From: an uncultured Eubacteriales bacterium
GTDB taxonomy: Bacteria > Bacillota > Clostridia > Peptostreptococcales > Anaerovoracaceae
DNA: 64,000 nucleotides
Assembly: GCA_902786855.1 (NCBI GenBank)
Contig: CADAEH010000013.1
Coordinates: 1-64,000, forward strand
Reading direction: 5' to 3'
The notes beneath the pieces are model-generated. The model was given only the letters and a program-made list of their open reading frames with translations, was not told the origin of the DNA and did no database searches. This document shows, one piece after another, positions 22,695-31,775 of this stretch. Position numbers and translations under genes: made by a program. How positions within the stretch are numbered: position 1 is the first letter of the stretch; every line of letters begins with the position of its first letter.

Positions 22695-23750
22695 ATGCAT
22701 ATGGCAGATGCTTTACTGGCTCCTGCAGTGGCCGCGACAATGTATGTCGCATCCGCATCGGCAGCCGGCGTTTCGATACATCAACTGAAAAAAGATGATG
22801 AGCCGTCCAAGTTACCTGTTATGGCGGTAACTTCTGCGCTTGTGTTTGCAGGGCAGATGATCAACTATACCATTCCGGGGACAGGTTCTTCCGGTCATAT
22901 GTGCGGAGGAATGATGCTGTCAGCCCTGCTTGGGCCGTATGCAGGATTCCTGTCCATGATAGTGATACTTACGATACAATGTCTTTTCTTTGCCGACGGG
23001 GGATTGATGGCCCTGGGGGCCAACTGCTGGAACATGGCGTTTTACGGGTGCTTCGTCGGCTACTTCCTCATCTGGCGTCCGATAATGAACAGCAAATGGT
23101 TCGGAGAAGGCAAGTCAGCAGAAAGGGCTCGCATTATTGCATCTTCGATAATCGGCTGCATAGTCACCTTGCAGCTCGGAGCTTTTTCTGTAGTACTGGA
23201 GACGAGCCTGTCAGGAATAACGGAGCTGCCGTTCGGTGCATTTGTCGCTCTGATGCAGCCTATCCATCTGGCAATAGGTCTCGTTGAAGGTCTGATCACA
23301 TCTGCGGTCCTCGTGTTCGTACATGATTCCCGTCCGGAACTCCTGCAAGGGGTCGAACTCAGCGAAGGCGGGGAAGCGAAGCGCTCCCTCAAATCAGTCG
23401 TTGCGATACTTGCCGCTGTTGCTATCGTAGTGGGCGGAGGACTGAGCCTGCTGGCCAGCTCGAATCCTGACGGCCTTGAGTGGGCACTCTTCGGAAATGC
23501 AGACAAAGGATATTCAACCAATATGGGTCTCGATGAAGAAAATTTCGGAGTAGACAGCACCGCTGCTGAAAAGGCAGAGTCCATCCAGGAAAAAACATCA
23601 TTCCTTCCTGACTATGCATTCCCGGGCAGCGATTCTTCAGCAGGCACTACTGTATCAGGTATAGTCGGATCAGCCATTGTAGCAGGCGTTGCTATCATAA
23701 TATGTCTGATCGGAGGATTCTTCCGCAGGAGGAAGCTCAAAACTGAATAG
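22695..23750 (+). CDS. cbiM: CbiM-type substrate-specificity subunit of a nickel/cobalt ECF importer, with fused CbiN-like part
   Basis: Membrane protein that binds Co2+ or Ni2+ and passes it inward. It starts with MHMADALL, the family's N-terminal metal-binding signature, so ATG 22695 is firm. About six hydrophobic segments fill residues 1-215, including GSSGHMCGGMM near 64. A second part (about 230-351) carries one membrane segment, a PDGLE motif and a final membrane helix, matching the CbiN/NikN partner fused in frame. Cobalt versus nickel cannot be told by eye. A hairpin follows the gene. Confidence 0.92.
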   Translation: MHMADALLAPAVAATMYVASASAAGVSIHQLKKDDEPSKLPVMAVTSALVFAGQMINYTIPGTGSSGHMCGGMMLSALLGPYAGFLSMIVILTIQCLFFADGGLMALGANCWNMAFYGCFVGYFLIWRPIMNSKWFGEGKSAERARIIASSIIGCIVTLQLGAFSVVLETSLSGITELPFGAFVALMQPIHLAIGLVEGLITSAVLVFVHDSRPELLQGVELSEGGEAKRSLKSVVAILAAVAIVVGGGLSLLASSNPDGLEWALFGNADKGYSTNMGLDEENFGVDSTAAEKAESIQEKTSFLPDYAFPGSDSSAGTTVSGIVGSAIVAGVAIIICLIGGFFRRRKLKTE

Positions 23751-23804
23751 ACCATACTTCTATTTCTCTCTCTCAAAGAATATGGTATATATTATAAGGG
23801 GCAT

Positions 23805-23830
23805 CATGCGGTGCCCCTTATTAATGATTG
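23805..23830 (+). other. Intercistronic hairpin between cbiM and cbiQ
   Basis: Nine-bp stem TAAGGGGCA (23805-23813) with TGCCCCTTA (23822-23830), 8-nt loop, no T tract. It may reduce read-through into cbiQ or protect the cbiM message. Confidence 0.6.
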
Positions 23831-23846
23831 AACGCTTAAAAAATCT

Positions 23847-24650
23847 ATGAACAAAATGCAGAAAGCTTTGGCTGAGCTGTCTGAAATGGACGAGCTGGCG
23901 GCACGCCGCTCACCGATCCACAGACTGCATCCGGCTGCAAAGCTCCTCACCACAATTGCATATATACTTATCACATTGTCTTTTGATAAGTACGACCTCA
24001 GCGGTATTGTACCGATGGTGCTGTGGCCTGTTCTGATGTTTCAGATCAGCGGTGTTGAGGTGAGGACATGCTTCTATAAGCTGCGCATCGTGCTTCCGCT
24101 TGTTATGGCAGTGGGTCTGTTCAATCCGTTCTTCGACAGAGACATACTGTTTCACATCGGCAGCCTTGGAGTTTCCGGCGGTGTCGTTTCAATGATAACG
24201 CTGATGCTCAAGGGCGTGTTCTGCCTGATGGCATCGTTCCTGCTGATGGCAACAACTAAGATAGACAGCCTGTGTGCAGCGCTCCGGAAGCTTCACGTTC
24301 CGGCGATCCTGGTTTCTCTGCTGCAGCTTACATACCGCTATGTCGGCGTGATGACCGAGGAACTTGCGGTCATGACCGAAGCCTATCATCTGAGGGCGCC
24401 GGGACAGAAGGGTATACACATTTCAGCATGGGGTTCGTTCCTTGGACAGCTTCTGCTGCGCAGCATGGACCGGGCTCAGGAACTGTATTCCAGCATGCTG
24501 CTCCGTGGTTATCATGACCATTTTCATTATGCAGATATAGACAGGTTCAGTATAAAAGATGCATTATACATGGCAGGCTGCATCCTGTTTTTCCTGGTGC
24601 TCCGCTACGCAGATATAGCACAGCTCGTCGGCGGGCTGTTTGTGAGGTGA
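23847..24650 (+). CDS. cbiQ: Energy-coupling factor transmembrane protein CbiQ
   Basis: Transmembrane coupling subunit of the Ni/Co importer, 267 residues. It has several hydrophobic helices, and the cytoplasmic coupling segment HLRAPGQKG followed by RSMDRAQELYSSMLLRGY near 208-225 corresponds to the EcfT motifs that contact the ATPase. The ribosome site before ATG 23847 is poor, so translation may depend on the upstream hairpin region. It is 5 nt before cbiO. Confidence 0.88.
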   Translation: MNKMQKALAELSEMDELAARRSPIHRLHPAAKLLTTIAYILITLSFDKYDLSGIVPMVLWPVLMFQISGVEVRTCFYKLRIVLPLVMAVGLFNPFFDRDILFHIGSLGVSGGVVSMITLMLKGVFCLMASFLLMATTKIDSLCAALRKLHVPAILVSLLQLTYRYVGVMTEELAVMTEAYHLRAPGQKGIHISAWGSFLGQLLLRSMDRAQELYSSMLLRGYHDHFHYADIDRFSIKDALYMAGCILFFLVLRYADIAQLVGGLFVR

Positions 24651-24655
24651 TATAA

Positions 24656-25393
24656 ATGATCGAATTCCAGCACGTGAGTTTTGCATATGAAAAAAACAAA
24701 GACGTCCTGCACGACATGTCTTTCCGGATCGGTAAGGGGGAATCAGTAGGACTGATCGGTGCCAACGGCGCAGGAAAGTCCACGATCATGAAGCTCCTGC
24801 TCGGACTCCTTGAGGGTGAGGGCAAAGTGCTGATTGACGGCACTGAGGTGAAGAAGGAAACGCTTGGAGAGATCCGGGCAAAGCTCGGCTTTGTTCTTCA
24901 GAACTCGGACAATCAGATGTTCATGCCTACGGTGTACGAGGATATGATATTCGGACCGCTCAATTACGGTCTCAGCCGTGAAGTGGTCGACAAGCGCGTT
25001 GACGAAGTGCTCAGCAGGCTCCACCTTGAAGACCTCAAGCACCGTTACAACCATAAGATCTCAGGCGGAGAGAAGCGAATGGGAGCGATTGCCACGATAC
25101 TCGCCATGGAGCCTGCGGCAATCCTCATGGACGAGCCGACATCGGCTCTCGATCCATACAACCGCCGAATCGTGATAAACACGATTCGCGAGCTTGAGCA
25201 GACCAAGTTGATCGCTTCGCATGACCTCGATATGATACTTGATACCTGTGACAGGGTGATACTGATCTCAGGAGGGCGTATCGCGGCGGACGGACCGGCT
25301 GCAGAAATACTAAGTGACAGAGAGCTTCTTGAAGCCAACCGCATGGAACTTCCGCTCAGCATGAACGTGCATCCATATACATCAGGAGCATAG
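24656..25393 (+). CDS. cbiO: Energy-coupling factor ATPase CbiO
   Basis: ATPase of the Ni/Co importer, 245 residues. Walker A GANGAGKST near residue 36, Q-loop VLQNSDNQMFM, signature ISGGEKRMGAIA near 137, Walker [15 protein letters not shown] near 154 and switch His in IASHDLDM near 190. A single ATPase gene is present, so a homodimer is expected, as in other CbiMNQO systems. Confidence 0.93.
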   Translation: MIEFQHVSFAYEKNKDVLHDMSFRIGKGESVGLIGANGAGKSTIMKLLLGLLEGEGKVLIDGTEVKKETLGEIRAKLGFVLQNSDNQMFMPTVYEDMIFGPLNYGLSREVVDKRVDEVLSRLHLEDLKHRYNHKISGGEKRMGAIATILAMEPAAILMDEPTSALDPYNRRIVINTIRELEQTKLIASHDLDMILDTCDRVILISGGRIAADGPAAEILSDRELLEANRMELPLSMNVHPYTSGA

Positions 25394-26256: not shown

Positions 26257-27477
26257 TTATCTGAAGAGTGCAGGTGTAACGATCTTAGCCTGCTCATCAA
26301 GCACGAATGTCGAGAATTCTCTGACATCTTCGATCGTATCACATAATGCTGTATACATCTGGTTGCCCATTGCCGCAGAGAAGATGTCAGGCATGCGCTC
26401 GCAGAGTACGATCCTGCCGCCAAAACGGTCGAGTATCTCATTGTGAGTGTGGGTGTGCGTGAAAGCATCCTTGCGGCTTGCAAAGACGCAATAGCGGTGA
26501 ACACCGTTGTCAGGCAGCCGGCGGCTGTTAGTGCATACCATATCAGCCCACAGGGTGTATACGTCTGTTGAGTGAGCAAAGTTCATCATATCCGGCGTGT
26601 AGCCTCCGGCAGGCCTCATATTGACCTCCAGACCGACAAAATCTCCTGCTTTACCGAGTCCTTTTCTTGCTTCGGTAAGACGGAAGAACTCAAAATGAGT
26701 GAACCTGTTTTTGACCTTAAAAGCTTTGAGCGCCTTGCGGCCGAGCGCTCTAAGCTGCTCAGGCACATCGGCTGTAACATAGTAGAGCACCTCTGTACCA
26801 TTGTTCACGGACTCTGCTACATTAGGGCATATGAAAGAGGATTCGAAAAGCGGGTCTCCGTTTGAGTCGCAGATCGCATCATATGAATAGATGTCGCCGG
26901 TGACAAATTCTTCTATCACATATGGGTAATCAGACTTTTCAATAAAGAATGCCTCGAGCTGTGCATCATTCTCTATTTTCCATGTGTCATCCGCTCCCAC
27001 TCCTGTGTCAGGCTTTGCGAAGAGCGGGTAGCCGCCGACTTCTTCAAGGAATTCCTTTGCTGCTGCCAGGTCTGTGACCTTGTGATTTCTTGCTGATGGT
27101 ATTCCGGCAGCCTTATATACAGGTTTCATTGCCGACTTGCTCTGCCAGAGCGCAAGGTCGTCAGGCTGTACGCCTGTTGTTATGTTGAAATCACGTCTGA
27201 GATGAGCATCCAGTCTGAGCCAGTGCTCATTGTTTGATTCAAGCCAGTCTATCTTTCCGTATTTGAAGGAGAAAAAACCTATTGCCCTGAATACTGCATC
27301 GTAGTCCTCAAGAGTGTCCACTTTATAATATTCTGTAAGCGATGCCTTCAGTTCGTCTGAAAGAAAGTCATATGGTGCATCGCCAACGCCAAGTACATTT
27401 ACTCCGTTATTTTTCAATCTGTCACAGAACTGCCAGAAGTTCTGCGGGAAATTAGGTGATATAAAAACAAAATTCAT
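26257..27477 (-). CDS. ATP-grasp domain carboxylate-amine ligase-like protein
   Basis: Probably joins a carboxylate to an amine or thiol at the cost of ATP. The 406-residue product has an N-terminal Rossmann-like part (MNFVFISPNFPQNFWQF), then an ATP-grasp fold with the Lys in YPLFAKPDTGVGADDT near 153, YVIEEFVTGDIYSYDA near 190 and the metal-binding FVGLEVNMRPAGG near 285. A HTHTHTH run lies near residue 345. It is divergent from the nitrogenase-like locus. The substrate is unknown. A link to that locus is possible but not shown. Confidence 0.72.
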   Translation of the reverse strand: MNFVFISPNFPQNFWQFCDRLKNNGVNVLGVGDAPYDFLSDELKASLTEYYKVDTLEDYDAVFRAIGFFSFKYGKIDWLESNNEHWLRLDAHLRRDFNITTGVQPDDLALWQSKSAMKPVYKAAGIPSARNHKVTDLAAAKEFLEEVGGYPLFAKPDTGVGADDTWKIENDAQLEAFFIEKSDYPYVIEEFVTGDIYSYDAICDSNGDPLFESSFICPNVAESVNNGTEVLYYVTADVPEQLRALGRKALKAFKVKNRFTHFEFFRLTEARKGLGKAGDFVGLEVNMRPAGGYTPDMMNFAHSTDVYTLWADMVCTNSRRLPDNGVHRYCVFASRKDAFTHTHTHNEILDRFGGRIVLCERMPDIFSAAMGNQMYTALCDTIEDVREFSTFVLDEQAKIVTPALFR

Positions 27478-27567
27478 TATTGATTCCCTCTTTGATTCTT
27501 ACTACAGCATGTAATATGTTTTTCATGATACACCTATTCTTTGTAAAAAACCACAAGAATATTGATA

Positions 27568-27700
27568 TAATTTGTTATTATTCACTGCAACAATGTGATT
27601 GACTTCCGGAATGCAGTGACATAGTATGTTCTCCGCGATACGGCTGCGGAAAGTGCCAGGTCGGAGTACCATGTGAGTTCCGGTCGCCGCTTTAGCTACT
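27568..27700. other. GC-rich non-coding segment with inverted repeats in the divergent gap
   Basis: The 285-bp gap between the ATP-grasp gene and the TM1266-like gene has no gene. Its middle contains several short inverted repeats, for example TCCGC/GCGGA around 27630-27650 and TCGGA/TTCCG around 27661-27682. A TATAAT lies at 27564-27569. I could not match it to a known riboswitch consensus by eye. Confidence 0.4.
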
Positions 27701-27701
27701 G

Positions 27702-27730
27702 TTGTCTGTAAATCCGCTCTATGATAGAAT
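27702..27730 (+). promoter_or_regulatory. Candidate promoter for the TM1266-like gene and nitrogenase-like locus
   Basis: TTGTCT at 27702-27707, a 17-nt spacer and TAGAAT at 27725-27730. AAAGGAG at 27748-27754 then precedes ATG 27763. Confidence 0.5.
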
Positions 27731-27762
27731 ACCAATACTAATTGAATAAAGGAGTGATATCG

Positions 27763-28008
27763 ATGGAAACAAGAGTTGCTGTTATAAGCATTATTGTTTC
27801 GAAGGCTGATCAGGTGGAAGTGCTGAATGACCTTCTCCATGAGTACTCAGAATACATCCTCGGCAGGATGGGGGTTCCTTATAGAGAGAAAGGGCTGAAC
27901 ATAATCAGCATCGCCATCGACGCACCAATGGATAAGATCAATTCTCTGACAGGTGCGCTCGGACGCCTCGAAGGCATTAATGCCAAGGTGACCTACGCTA
28001 AGGCCTGA
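27763..28008 (+). CDS. TM1266-family small regulator (iron-only hydrogenase system type)
   Basis: Eighty-one residues forming one ACT-like/NikR-C-like domain: RVAVISIIVSKADQVEVLND, EYILGRMGVPYREKGLNIIS and IDAPMDKINSLTGALGRLEG. TM1266-type proteins occur beside [FeFe]-hydrogenase genes and are thought to bind a small ligand or metal. Their exact role is not established. The start is placed at ATG 27763 (AAAGGAG eight bases upstream) rather than the in-frame TTG at 27742. It is the first gene before the nitrogenase-like reductase, and hydF lies 22 kb away. Confidence 0.78.
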   Translation: METRVAVISIIVSKADQVEVLNDLLHEYSEYILGRMGVPYREKGLNIISIAIDAPMDKINSLTGALGRLEGINAKVTYAKA

Positions 28009-28020
28009 TATCCTCACCAC

Positions 28021-28131
28021 CCACCGGATCAGTATGATCCGCATCCCCTGCGGCAGAATTACCGGGCATACTCATATGTAAGGAGGAATGCCTGGCTATG
28101 AAGCCTAAGCTCGATGTGACAAGGTATATTT
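28021..28131 (+). other. Structured leader upstream of the NifH-like gene
   Basis: Contains a hairpin GGATCA/TGATCC (28025-28039), an 8-bp stem CCGGGCAT (28062-28069) with ATGCCTGG (28088-28095) whose loop exposes AAGGAGG, and a small GGCT/AGCC stem. It ends directly at a strong terminator. The order, stems then terminator then operon, is that of an attenuator or riboswitch, but I recognise no class. Confidence 0.45.
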
Positions 28132-28169
28132 GCCTTGCTCCCGACAGGGGAGCAGGGCTTTTTTGGTGA
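28098..28169 (+). CDS. Candidate 23-codon leader peptide
   Basis: ATG 28098 lies 11 nt after AAGGAGG (28080-28086) and runs 23 codons (begins [10 protein letters not shown], ends GLFW) to TGA at 28167. The reading passes straight through the terminator hairpin at 28132-28164, so a translating ribosome would block the hairpin. It has no family I know. It could also be chance. Confidence 0.35.
28132..28164 (+). terminator. Intrinsic terminator (attenuator candidate) before the NifH-like gene
   Basis: Eleven-bp stem 28132-28142 with 28148-28158, loop GACAG, then six T. It lies 130 nt before the NifH-like start and would stop transcription coming from the TM1266-like gene unless relieved. Confidence 0.88.
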
Positions 28170-28293
28170 GTATATGGGACCGGAGACAGGGCATCTACTG
28201 CGCATTCGAAAAAGCATGGCGCAGATCATTAAAGTATGCGGCCGGCCTGATCACAGGGGGCAACCGGACGCAAAAGTGAAAGGACATAAAATT

Positions 28294-29058
28294 ATGGTTA
28301 AAATAGCAGTATACGGAAAGGGCGGTATCGGCAAGTCAACGACGGTATCCAATATTTCCGCTGCGCTTGCAGATATGGGATACAGGGTGATGCAGATAGG
28401 CTGCGATCCTAAGGCGGATTCGACGGCCAGCCTGCATGGTCTCGGAGAGATCACTACTGTGCTCGACCTCGTCAGGCAGCGCAAAAATGATTTTGCCCTT
28501 GAAGACATGGTGCGTGAAGGGTATGGCGGCGTCATATGTGTCGAGGCGGGCGGACCGACTCCGGGACTCGGCTGTGCAGGGCGCGGTATCATAGCAGCCC
28601 TTGAGAAACTCAAGGAAAAAGGTGCATATGATGTCTACAGGCCGGATGTAGTTATCTATGATGTTCTCGGCGATGTAGTATGCGGAGGATTCTCAATGCC
28701 GATGCGCGGCGGGTATGCCGATAAGGTATTTATCATCACTTCGGGAGAGAACATGGCCATCCATGCGGCAGCCAATATTGCTGTAGCACTTGACGGGTTC
28801 AAGGACAGAGGCTATGCGACTCTCGGCGGGATCATCCTCAACCACAGAGATGTCAGGTCCGAAGATGAGAAAGTCGAAGAGCTGGCACAGGATATACACT
28901 CAGAAATAATCGGGGAACTGACCAGAAGCGAAACGGTCACTGATGCAGAGGATCTGGGCAAGACCGTCATTGAGGCTTTCCCGCAAAGTGCTATGGCTGA
29001 AGAATACCGTACACTTGCAAAGAAACTGATAGAGATCTGCGGAGTAACAAAAGAATAA
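28294..29058 (+). CDS. NifH-like ATP-dependent reductase (nitrogenase-like Fe protein)
   Basis: Homodimeric ATPase that should carry a [4Fe-4S] cluster between subunits and pass electrons at low potential to the component-1-like pair encoded next. From ATG 28294 it has 254 residues, near but shorter than NifH. Walker [10 protein letters not shown] is at 8-16. Switch-type DPKADST follows at 38. Both cluster cysteines are present: C94 in GLGCAGRG and C130 in [18 protein letters not shown] nine bases upstream and the family N-terminus ([10 protein letters not shown]) set the start. An open reading back to 28135 crosses the terminator and is not used. The D-like gene is 7 nt downstream. Confidence 0.9.
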
Positions 29059-29065
29059 CGAAGAT

Positions 29066-30484
29066 ATGCTTAAAAGAATCAATGAAAAAACCGAATCAAC
29101 GGTCATCCCGGGCGTCAGGATAGCTGACGCAGCATTTCCTGCGCCGTTCAGATCAGGACTGGAGTATTCTTCACCTGCCCGCGGTACATGGAATATAGTC
29201 CATACGGGGATGCTGATCCCGGAAGCGCACCAGATCTATGTGTGCGGAGCGGGCTGCCTGCGTGGTGTCGTTCTGACAGCAGCAGAGATGGGTACGATGG
29301 ACAGATTCTCTACAGTTGCTATCAGGGAAAACAATCTTCTCGACGGCGACATGGAAGATCTCGTTATCGAGGGAGTATCTGATATAATCGGAAAGCTGCC
29401 GAAGAGACCTCCGGCAGTTCTTGTGTTCACAAGTTGTATCCATCACTTCACAGGTGTGGATCTTGATATGATCTATGCAAGGCTCAGGGAGAGATTCCCG
29501 GATATTGATTTTGCTGATTGTTACATGAATCCTATCATGAGAAAGAGCGGACTCACACCTGATCAGCTTATGCGGTCAAGACTGTATATGCCGCTTCATG
29601 AGCGTCCGATCAATTCCTCTTCGGTAGCTATAATAGGAAATGACCTTGCGGCACAGAGTGACAGCGACCTTGTCAGACTGCTGAAAGCGTCAGGCCTGCG
29701 CATCCATGAGATCACATCCTGCAAGACATATGAAGAGTATCAGGAAATGGCTGAAAGCTCAGTATACATTTCATATAATCCGGATGCTGTTCCGGGCGGC
29801 AATATGCTCTCAGACAGGCTCGGGGGCAGGCACCATTATCTGAAATTCAGCTTCGATCAGGGAGAGATCGATGAAGAATTCGATAAACTGGCAGAAACTC
29901 TCATAGCAAGCGGCCCGGCCGGTGAGGACTTTGCTGTACGCGTCAGGAATGCATTATCTGAGATCAGAGAGGAAGGAAGGTCTGCTGCGGAGCAGGCTGT
30001 AAAGGAAACATATGCGCTTATCGGCGATACTCCTGTAACTATCGATTATACATTTTGCCCGAGACCGCTTGGACTCGCGAGGTTCCTGCTGGATAACGGG
30101 TTCAATGTGAAAAAAGTCTATGTAGACGGTATCCCTGCCGCGGATAAACCGAGCTTTGATTATCTGCAGGAACATTATCCTGACCTGATGCTGCATCCGA
30201 CAGTACATGCTTCGATGAGATTCGCAGCTGCTGAGAATACTGCACATGCAGAAAGAAATGAAGCGCAAAGCTCCGGCAGAGCGCAGGTGCTGGCTATCGG
30301 ACAGAAGGCAGCATACTTTGAGAATACGAAGCATTTTGTGAATGTGGTCGAGGGCGGCGGTATGAACGGATACGAAGCCATCGTCCGCACCCTTGGACTC
30401 ATGAAAGAAGCTTATCTCGAAGAAAAGCCGATGCGTGACCTGGTCCAGGTAAAAGGCCTTGGATGCGAAGTGTGTGTGAGGTGA
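29066..30484 (+). CDS. Nitrogenase component 1-like protein, NifD-like
   Basis: One half of a catalytic heterotetramer by analogy with nitrogenase and dark-operative protochlorophyllide reductase, 472 residues. Three cysteines lie in likely cluster positions: C60 and C64 (YVCGAGCLRG) and C124 (FTSCIHHFTGVD). By eye the usual first P-cluster Cys is replaced (SSPARG), the FeMo-cofactor Cys aligns with Ser in YISYNPDA, and the cofactor His aligns with Asn in GGGMNGYEA near residue 435. A C-terminal CEVC pair is unusual. Residues near 390-405 form a charged insert. It is 4 nt before the K-like gene. Not a nitrogenase by these residues. The substrate is unknown. Confidence 0.82.
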   Translation: MLKRINEKTESTVIPGVRIADAAFPAPFRSGLEYSSPARGTWNIVHTGMLIPEAHQIYVCGAGCLRGVVLTAAEMGTMDRFSTVAIRENNLLDGDMEDLVIEGVSDIIGKLPKRPPAVLVFTSCIHHFTGVDLDMIYARLRERFPDIDFADCYMNPIMRKSGLTPDQLMRSRLYMPLHERPINSSSVAIIGNDLAAQSDSDLVRLLKASGLRIHEITSCKTYEEYQEMAESSVYISYNPDAVPGGNMLSDRLGGRHHYLKFSFDQGEIDEEFDKLAETLIASGPAGEDFAVRVRNALSEIREEGRSAAEQAVKETYALIGDTPVTIDYTFCPRPLGLARFLLDNGFNVKKVYVDGIPAADKPSFDYLQEHYPDLMLHPTVHASMRFAAAENTAHAERNEAQSSGRAQVLAIGQKAAYFENTKHFVNVVEGGGMNGYEAIVRTLGLMKEAYLEEKPMRDLVQVKGLGCEVCVR

Positions 30485-30488
30485 TGCT

Positions 30489-31775
30489 ATGAAACAGACT
30501 GCAAGAATAATATCCACATACTCTGCTGATGTAATGGGCGTATGCTCGGCTCTTTTCGAACTGGGCGGTATGACGGTCATGCATGACGCTTCGGGATGCA
30601 ACTCTACATACACTACACACGATGAACCACGCTGGTACGACATGGACAGTATGGTGTTTATTTCCGGGCTCAGTGAAATAGAAGCTATCATGGGCGATGA
30701 TGAAAAGCTGATAGGCGATATATGCGATGCTGCTTCCGAACTGCATCCGGAATTCATTGCCATAGCAGGTTCACCGATCTCAGCAATGACAGGTTTTGAC
30801 TACGAAGCTGTTGCCGAGGTCATCGAGCTGAGAACAGGCATCCCGGCATTCGGATTCCCGACGACGGGAATGAACACATATATCCATGGTGCTTCAATGG
30901 CACTGGCAGGCATAGCAAAGCGCTTTGTTGAGGAGCCGGAGCGTAAGAAGCAAGTGAATGATAGAGAGCAGGAAAGTGACTCCGGTGACAGGGGCGCTTC
31001 GGCACCGTACAAAGTAAACATACTAGGGCTGACTCCTCTTGATTTTTCAATAGTCGGCATGGACAGATCTATCGAGCACTGGCTCGAGGATAACGGATTT
31101 GAAGTAGTTTCAAAATGGGCGATGGGCAGCAGCCTTGATGAGATCAGGAGTGCTGCAGAAGCAGATGTGGATCTGGTAGTATCAGCATCGGGCATCGGAG
31201 CGGCCGAAGTGTTGTATGAAAGGTTCGGCATCCCGTATATAGTCGGAGTACCTATTGGCGATCAGCCTGCCGGGCAGAGCCCTAAAGCATTTCTGGCCAG
31301 CGTGCTGAAAAAATATGCCGGTAATAAGAGAAGGAAGGAGCGGGGTGAAGGATCAGATCTGTCAAATAAGTGCATGAATGTCATGACAGATGTGAGCCGC
31401 ATGTATCCACAGAATGAAGAAGCGATCGCGAAGGGAACTGTCGCTATAATAGGAGAGCCGGTAACTTCACTCGCTCTGGCAGCCGCGATAGAATCCGGAA
31501 CGGGAAGGAACACCAAGGTGCTCTGTGCAACAGAGACCATGGGCATAACGCTCAGACCTGAGGATCACGTGACACCTGATGAAGATGATATAATCCCTGA
31601 GCTCGCTGACGCGGCAGTAATAATCGCCGATCCGCTTTATCAGCCGATATGTCCTCCGGAAGCGAAGTTCATCGCTTTGCCGTCAGAAGCATTTTCGGGC
31701 AGGATATTCCGTACAGACATCCCGGATCTCATTACTGAGGAAGGGCTTGCTGCTATTTTGAACAAAGGAGTTTAA
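30489..31775 (+). CDS. Nitrogenase component 1-like protein, NifK-like
   Basis: Partner of the preceding protein, 428 residues. C19 (GVCSALFELGG) and C37 (DASGCNSTYTTHDEPRWY) match the first two P-cluster positions. The third is Ser95 (IAGSPISAMTGFD). With C60 or C64 and C124 of the D-like partner this leaves four cysteines at the interface, enough for one [4Fe-4S] cluster as in tetrapyrrole reductases rather than an eight-iron P-cluster. Residues about 150-172 form a charged, low-complexity insert (EPERKKQVNDREQ). Its stop is 3 nt before an alpha-glucosidase start, so the transcript probably continues into sugar genes. Confidence 0.82.
   Translation: MKQTARIISTYSADVMGVCSALFELGGMTVMHDASGCNSTYTTHDEPRWYDMDSMVFISGLSEIEAIMGDDEKLIGDICDAASELHPEFIAIAGSPISAMTGFDYEAVAEVIELRTGIPAFGFPTTGMNTYIHGASMALAGIAKRFVEEPERKKQVNDREQESDSGDRGASAPYKVNILGLTPLDFSIVGMDRSIEHWLEDNGFEVVSKWAMGSSLDEIRSAAEADVDLVVSASGIGAAEVLYERFGIPYIVGVPIGDQPAGQSPKAFLASVLKKYAGNKRRKERGEGSDLSNKCMNVMTDVSRMYPQNEEAIAKGTVAIIGEPVTSLALAAAIESGTGRNTKVLCATETMGITLRPEDHVTPDEDDIIPELADAAVIIADPLYQPICPPEAKFIALPSEAFSGRIFRTDIPDLITEEGLAAILNKGV

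Follow-up and report, generated by a model that had tools for sequence, protein, structure and literature searches.

The question raised by positions 27,763 to 31,775 of the DNA studied here, a stretch of 64,000 nucleotides (the window; positions 1 to 64,000 of the forward strand of contig CADAEH010000013.1, assembly GCA_902786855.1) from an uncultured Eubacteriales bacterium of the Anaerovoracaceae, is what function its nitrogenase-like genes serve. The genes encode a NifH-like ATPase (H) and two component-1-like proteins (D and K, designated D1 and K1), and the initial annotation had proposed a substrate-specific reductase, possibly undescribed, akin to enzymes that reduce tetrapyrroles or act on thioethers. 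The present analysis revealed that the H-D-K genes are strongly associated with assembly of the H-cluster, i.e., with maturation of [FeFe] hydrogenases, and the preferred reading, to which a probability of roughly 0.72 is assigned, is that the H-D-K set is an [FeFe]-hydrogenase maturase standing in for HydG. This proposal is based on gene content, operons, distribution, conserved residues, and folds, and the functional replacement of HydG, the ligand or complex made, and the substance imported are inferred.

The carbon monoxide (CO) and cyanide of [FeFe] hydrogenases are attributed to HydG, which produces both from tyrosine and hands a mononuclear Fe(CN)(CO)2(cysteine) unit to HydE (PMC12752695). 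Among eight acetogens, hydG was identified in only three; for the others no straightforward explanation was offered, and unusual motifs or the use of free CO and cyanide were suggested (PMC9431212). In the open-licence literature searched, no paper tying nitrogenase-like genes to H-cluster assembly was found, and to that extent the expectation of an undescribed system has held. The data point to a possible second route to the H-cluster, in which relatives of nitrogenase occupy the place of HydG in many gut bacteria that possess [FeFe] hydrogenases.

The locus comprises the following genes:

27763..28008, + strand: TM1266-family small protein, 81 amino acids (NCBIfam TIGR03959, 107 bits, cut-off 60.8; Pfam PF21699, 103.4 bits)
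28294..29058, + strand: NifH-like ATPase, the reductase component (H), 254 amino acids, cluster cysteines C94 and C130 (Pfam Fer4_NifH, 295.8 bits)
29066..30484, + strand: NifD/E-type component-1 subunit D1, 472 amino acids, invariant C60, C64, C124, and C152 (Pfam Oxidored_nitro)
30489..31775, + strand: NifK/N/BchB-type component-1 subunit K1, 428 amino acids, invariant C37 (Pfam Oxidored_nitro)

Reading frames, spacing (7 nt between H and D, 4 nt between D and K), and the cysteines C94 and C130 of a complete nitrogenase-like system were found as first described. Moreover, the Fer4_NifH and Oxidored_nitro matches lie above the Pfam gathering cut-offs and the single-chain folds of D and K fit, which places the proteins in the nitrogenase-like superfamily. 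A fourth gene, TM1266, begins at position 27763, ahead of H-D-K; its family is named for [FeFe] hydrogenases (TIGR03959, 'iron-only hydrogenase system putative regulator').

HydE and HydF are [FeFe]-hydrogenase maturases, and their genes recur beside D1. A scan of a named genome collection detected 324 relatives at an E-value of 1e-3, and the best 80 loci were analyzed, counting neighbors within 10 kb of D1 or up to the contig end; some of these loci are records that are also among the 61 genomes described below. The loci derive mostly from metagenome-assembled genomes (MAGs) of rumen and gut bacteria (Mogibacterium, Clostridiales, Lachnospiraceae, Oscillospiraceae, Blautia, and others), with two from Intestinibacter bartlettii, and one (L126) lies on a contig titled Actinomycetaceae, possibly through an error of binning or naming. 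TM1266 was found near D1 in 65 of the 80 loci, HydE in 31, HydF in 24, and HydE or HydF in 43, and any of the three in 73, surroundings that fit a maturation operon, while HydG was beside D1 in none of the 80. Among the 46 loci with long flanks the corresponding numbers were 44 for TM1266, 15 for HydE, 15 for HydF, 23 for HydE or HydF, and 0 for HydG. Besides these genes, the components of a FecBCD-type importer were frequent in the 80 loci (FecCD permease 63, ATPase 63, binding protein 66), and the fullest operon of this form reads TM1266-FecC-FecD-HydE-H-D-K-binding protein-HydF. Hyp genes were near D1 in none of the 80. The one importer ATPase scanned contains, at residues 288-357, a domain of the TM1266 family (55.5 bits against a cut-off of 27). 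Of the 28 loci tested for the distance between TM1266 and D, the window among them, 24 have the two at most 7 kb apart; in the window, TM1266 is the sole such gene adjoining H-D-K, HydE being located on a different contig.

The distribution of D1 relative to HydG was determined in two genome sets, of which the first consists of 61 genomes (the window's own and 60 relatives; 37 in the window's genus) and the second of 245 genomes sampled evenly across the Clostridia, with G000, G047, and a few more common to both. A strict D1 was defined by a score of at least 480 bits, the genome groups of the class sample were compiled by eye from match tables, and the HydG profile used detects HydG in a Thermotoga control. 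In the first set, window-type D was present in 32 genomes, 31 of these in the window's genus, with weaker matches in three more, and HydG above cut-off was detected in 17, HydE in 47, and an [FeFe]-hydrogenase domain in 60 of the 61. HydG and window-type D occurred together in none of these genomes (0/61), HydG thus being found in 0 of 32 D1 genomes, and the 47 genomes with HydE were divided into 17 with HydG, 29 with D1, and a single one (G002, 79% complete) with a component-1 fragment only; HydE was accordingly without HydG in 30 of 47. In the second set HydE was above cut-off in 167 of 245 genomes, 151 with HydG and 16 without (16/167), and strict D1 was present in 10 of the 16 HydG-less genomes vs none of the 151 others (Fisher p 2e-12, uncorrected for kinship); all ten strict D1 genomes had HydE and none had HydG.

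Both arrangements also occur within single genera. For example, the window's genus includes a genome (G031) with a HydA-HydF-HydE-HydG operon and no D1, and genus g75 holds four genomes with D1 and without HydG next to two with HydG and without D1. Comparison of HydE from 22 HydG-less genomes with HydE from 5 HydG-partnered ones revealed no fixed difference; as HydG is gone and HydE is kept without fixed change, the unit delivered to HydE is probably much the same as before. Replacement of HydG by H-D-K is considered likely.

The operons occur in two forms, the first consisting of the D1 set and the FecBCD-type importer, the second containing a second D-K pair (D2 and K2) and HypF-HypC-HypD-HypE. 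In families other than the window's, the D2-K2-Hyp block is located next to D1. In genome G265 (locus L194) the second form is one run, HydA-H-D2-K2-HypF-HypC-HypD-HypE-TM1266-D1-K1-HydF-HydE, with eight Hyd, Hyp, and TM1266 genes above NCBIfam cut-offs, and G317 has the same gene set minus HydA. In G168, G243, and G307, HydF and TM1266 are located within the Hyp/D1 run and HydE elsewhere, and in G230 the Hyp block accompanies D1 with the hyd genes not near. A HypC-like frame was found between HypF and HypD in all eight loci inspected, two of them tested by profile. A match to the [NiFe] large subunit was found in none of the 17 D2 genomes (seven of which are less than 90% complete) vs three of three other HypD genomes. 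The importer was near D1 in only 1 of 16 Hyp-type loci (G027) vs 19 of 19 others, a count in which G035 was taken as Hyp-type by its local HypF, G007 was omitted owing to its cut contig, and G334 and G250 were included without a genome-wide search for HypD; on this basis the importer and the Hyp block appear to be alternative parts. Moreover, HypD is missing from 17 of the 18 relatives that have the importer form.

The window's genome (87% complete) is of the second form, with its genes dispersed. Its [FeFe] hydrogenase, encoded beside a NuoF-like subunit, belongs to group A6 (877 bits, cut-off 765), and it also has HydE (550.6 bits, cut-off 254.6) on another contig, and a second H-D-K set (D2, K2) followed by HypF, HypC, HypD, and HypE, all four above curated cut-offs, on a third contig; no HydG (TIGR03955) above cut-off was found in this genome. 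The notion of a mere substrate reductase, comparable to those acting on tetrapyrroles or thioethers, is not supported, since the conserved TM1266, HydE, HydF, and (in one form) Hyp neighbors and the near-exclusive distribution relative to HydG point towards H-cluster assembly.

The nitrogenase-like D1-K1 set is the new component that the two forms share throughout, and it is therefore proposed to be a maturase; we infer that D-K supplies or completes the iron-CO-cyanide unit for HydE. In the proposed mechanism, electrons would be driven by ATP from the H protein through a [4Fe-4S] cluster at the D-K interface into D-K, where the iron-CO-cyanide unit that HydE dimerizes would be made or completed. 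In [NiFe] hydrogenase, the Fe(CN)2CO unit is normally the product of HypCDEF, the cyanide of which derives from carbamoyl phosphate (PMC6802093). In the second form, HypF-C-D-E would supply the precursor in concert with D2-K2, using cyanide of the same origin and assembling Fe(CN)2CO on HypCD. In the first form, the FecBCD-type importer would stand in for the Hyp part, possibly by bringing in an iron complex that serves as precursor. The wider picture, which is put forward tentatively and at somewhat less than even odds, is that of a second full H-cluster pathway, in which nitrogenase-like D-K together with repurposed HypF-C-D-E or an imported iron-CO-cyanide complex replaces HydG; the [NiFe] and [FeFe] cofactor routes, separate until now, would then be joined within a single operon, and gut microbes would exchange an organometallic iron complex in free form. 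If the proposed role is true, the nitrogenase family would acquire a new function and the H-cluster a second source of its CO and cyanide, HypCDEF would become tied to [FeFe] hydrogenase, and a new laboratory means of maturing hydrogenases would be within reach. The system would also bear on bacteria of the rumen and gut whose hydrogen might support methanogenesis.

Several observations weigh against this reading. Hydrogenase structural genes were near D1 in none of the 80 loci (HydA 0/80) and in one class-sample locus (G265). Three D1 genomes (G007, G029, and G035; 77-82% complete) lack HydE above cut-off, many genomes are incomplete MAGs, and the counts and tests ignore kinship. Six genomes with HydE and without HydG have no strict D1, among which G175, with HydE located at a contig end, and G267 are 99% complete. 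D1 is found where HydG is absent in both sets (0/32 and 0/10), but among 50 genomes traced from 50 of the 80 loci, selected to omit most loci close to the window's genus, five have D1 and HydG together. Two of these are Intestinibacter bartlettii (L167 and L168), a cultured gut species with an importer-linked H-D1-K1 and with HydE, HydF, and TM1266 not beside D1. Finally, two genomes of the first set with weaker D matches (G040 and G051) have HydG, and four genomes (G181, G249, G255, and G286; loci L187-L190) with weaker D matches of 309-338 bits carry H-D-K and a FecBCD-type importer with no hyd genes nearby, three of the four having HydG. The arrangement in these four loci is perhaps an older module, and the more distant D proteins with the importer but without hyd genes, the HydG in three of four, and the cases of G040 and G051 indicate that the module can serve another role.

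Two individual loci deserve separate mention. In G267 (L191, from 9047) the order is TM1266-HydE-HydF, with neither HydG above cut-off nor a D1 match in the genome, which is a third, unexplained case. G104 (L165), which has D1, contains on contig C26 (17349-17944) a HydG that matches profile positions 1-38 and 306-470 only and is perhaps a decaying gene; such a broken HydG was found in 1 of the 50 traced genomes.

The same operons and distribution would also fit if H-D-K were a reductive helper that donates electrons of very low potential to HydE, HypD, HydF, or the hydrogenase, while CO and cyanide are provided by HypF-C-D-E, free CO, or uptake. The ATP-driven complex that activates methyl-coenzyme M reductase offers a model for such a role (PMC12176620), and HydE and HydF alone gave approximately 1% activation, which doubled with added CO or cyanide (PMC9431212). 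However, the genes follow the absence of HydG and not the presence of hydrogenase, and HydG-bearing relatives with HydE and a hydrogenase manage without window-type D. Moreover, the lack of HypD in those 17 of 18 importer-form relatives leaves them no other known cyanide source among those looked for, and a helper role is therefore judged unlikely.

Somewhat lower still is the credence given to a metal-chelate or tetrapyrrole reductase, in which the importer would bring heme, a corrinoid, or an iron chelate that D-K reduces in a manner resembling dark-operative protochlorophyllide oxidoreductase (DPOR), the link to hydrogenase running via iron or heme-derived CO. The importer and the predicted BchB-like fold of K keep this explanation alive, but the importer is absent beside D1 in 15 of 16 second-D-K/Hyp genomes, a pattern more readily reconciled with the chemistry of cyanide or iron-cyanide than with that of heme, and the loss of HydG is not explained by iron supply alone. 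An independent reductase of another substrate (sulfonate, thioether, or other), with genes merely situated within a fermentation region, would accommodate both the five of 50 D1 genomes that kept HydG and the lack of hydrogenase genes near D1 (0/80), and known nitrogenase-like enzymes are equally diverse (PMC11423573, PMC12552129). It is nevertheless regarded as very improbable in view of HydE, HydF, or TM1266 near D1 in 73 of 80 loci, the TM1266 domain on an importer ATPase, and the split of 10/16 vs 0/151.

The maturase reading invites comparison with known systems. Like H-D-K, HydG is a genomic partner of HydE and the hydrogenase, and its step is apparently the missing one that D-K fills, but HydG is a radical S-adenosylmethionine tyrosine lyase, whereas the set described here is an unrelated ATP-driven nitrogenase-like reductase. 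Nitrogenase families were the only or best matches of H, D, and K, none of which belongs to the HydG family. The resemblance to NifEN lies in nifE being the best NCBIfam match of K1 (62.9 bits) and D2 (70.9 bits; cut-off 505) and in common cluster cysteines, a role in cofactor assembly being a proposed analogy; unlike NifEN, the components score far beneath the NifE cut-off, have no cofactor cysteine, and form a separate clade. In the tree, window-type components group apart from NifD, E, K, and N of genome G049. Alignment A3 comprised 57 of 71 non-redundant D sequences, and alignment A4 comprised 54 of 66 for K.

Assignment of H to NifH, CfbC, BchL, or BchX was rejected, as it scores beneath the curated cut-offs of all four: 320.5 bits for NifH (TIGR01287, cut-off 394.35), 312.5 for CfbC (NF033200, cut-off 402), 200.8 for BchL (cut-off 345.15), and 162.2 for BchX (cut-off 331.2). 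This agrees with the unassigned status given to the system in the initial annotation, and the system differs from DPOR (BchL-BchN-BchB) in its score against BchL. K1 is beneath the cut-offs of every NCBIfam component-1 model it matched, including BchB (41.9 bits, cut-off 490.35) and the CfbD-type model TIGR03282 (22.3 bits, cut-off 268.4), the latter without a match to D1, which matched no NCBIfam model at all. From CfbCD the system is further distinguished by two different catalytic subunits instead of a single CfbD-type one. MarBHDK and IsrBHDK are likewise nitrogenase-like H-D-K operons outside nitrogen fixation, but the window's D has, by alignment, no Cys at the large-cluster site, while MarD keeps Cys270 and His429 as cluster ligands (PMC12552129); the tree held no Mar reference. 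HypF-C-D-E scores above curated cut-offs in the second form, including in the window's genome, as in a genuine HypCDEF system, but unlike the latter it is accompanied by no [NiFe] large subunit in the 17 second-D-K genomes, several of which place Hyp among HydE, HydF, and D-K genes.

Alignment puts Asn (or Tyr) of D1 at the Cys column of the iron-molybdenum cofactor (FeMo-co) and Asn426 at the His region, which agrees with the earlier suggestion that FeMo-co ligands appear to be absent from D, although alignments of cofactor sites can mislead, the His ligand of MarD occupying a different loop (PMC12552129). Nitrogen fixation was discarded as a function, the genome having four component-1 matches only (two D-K pairs), with no cofactor Cys in the window pair by alignment. 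As for the interface cysteines that had been proposed, C60, C64, and C124 of D and C37 of K are invariant, with C60 a putative ligand peculiar to this clade, but C19 of K is not conserved, and the D-K interface probably carries a [4Fe-4S] cluster. Cys37 of K1 presumably aligns with the Asp ligand of BchB.

Upstream of H-D-K, a hairpin with a T run, terminator-like by eye, is located at 28137-28164 between TM1266 and the NifH-like gene, and the H-D-K genes may accordingly be under attenuation control. Rfam searches of the whole window and of 27400-28400 gave no match, and alignment of the leaders 5' of TM1266 from 22 loci, including the window, revealed no shared RNA structure, a conserved -10-like box being the sole common feature. 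Translations of 22695-25393, approximately 2.4 kb upstream of TM1266, resemble a CbiM-CbiQ-CbiO-type cobalt/nickel energy-coupling factor transporter; it was dismissed as a partner, as its genes clustered with no other D1 locus compared. Sugar-metabolism genes downstream were dismissed as well, since most other loci lack them, although some recur 3' of D1 in L035, L036, L040, and L043. In three members of the genus (L052, 8300-10828; L054, from 400; L055, from 6595) D1 and K1 are fused into a single protein of approximately 840 amino acids, and such natural D-K fusions could be helpful for structural studies.

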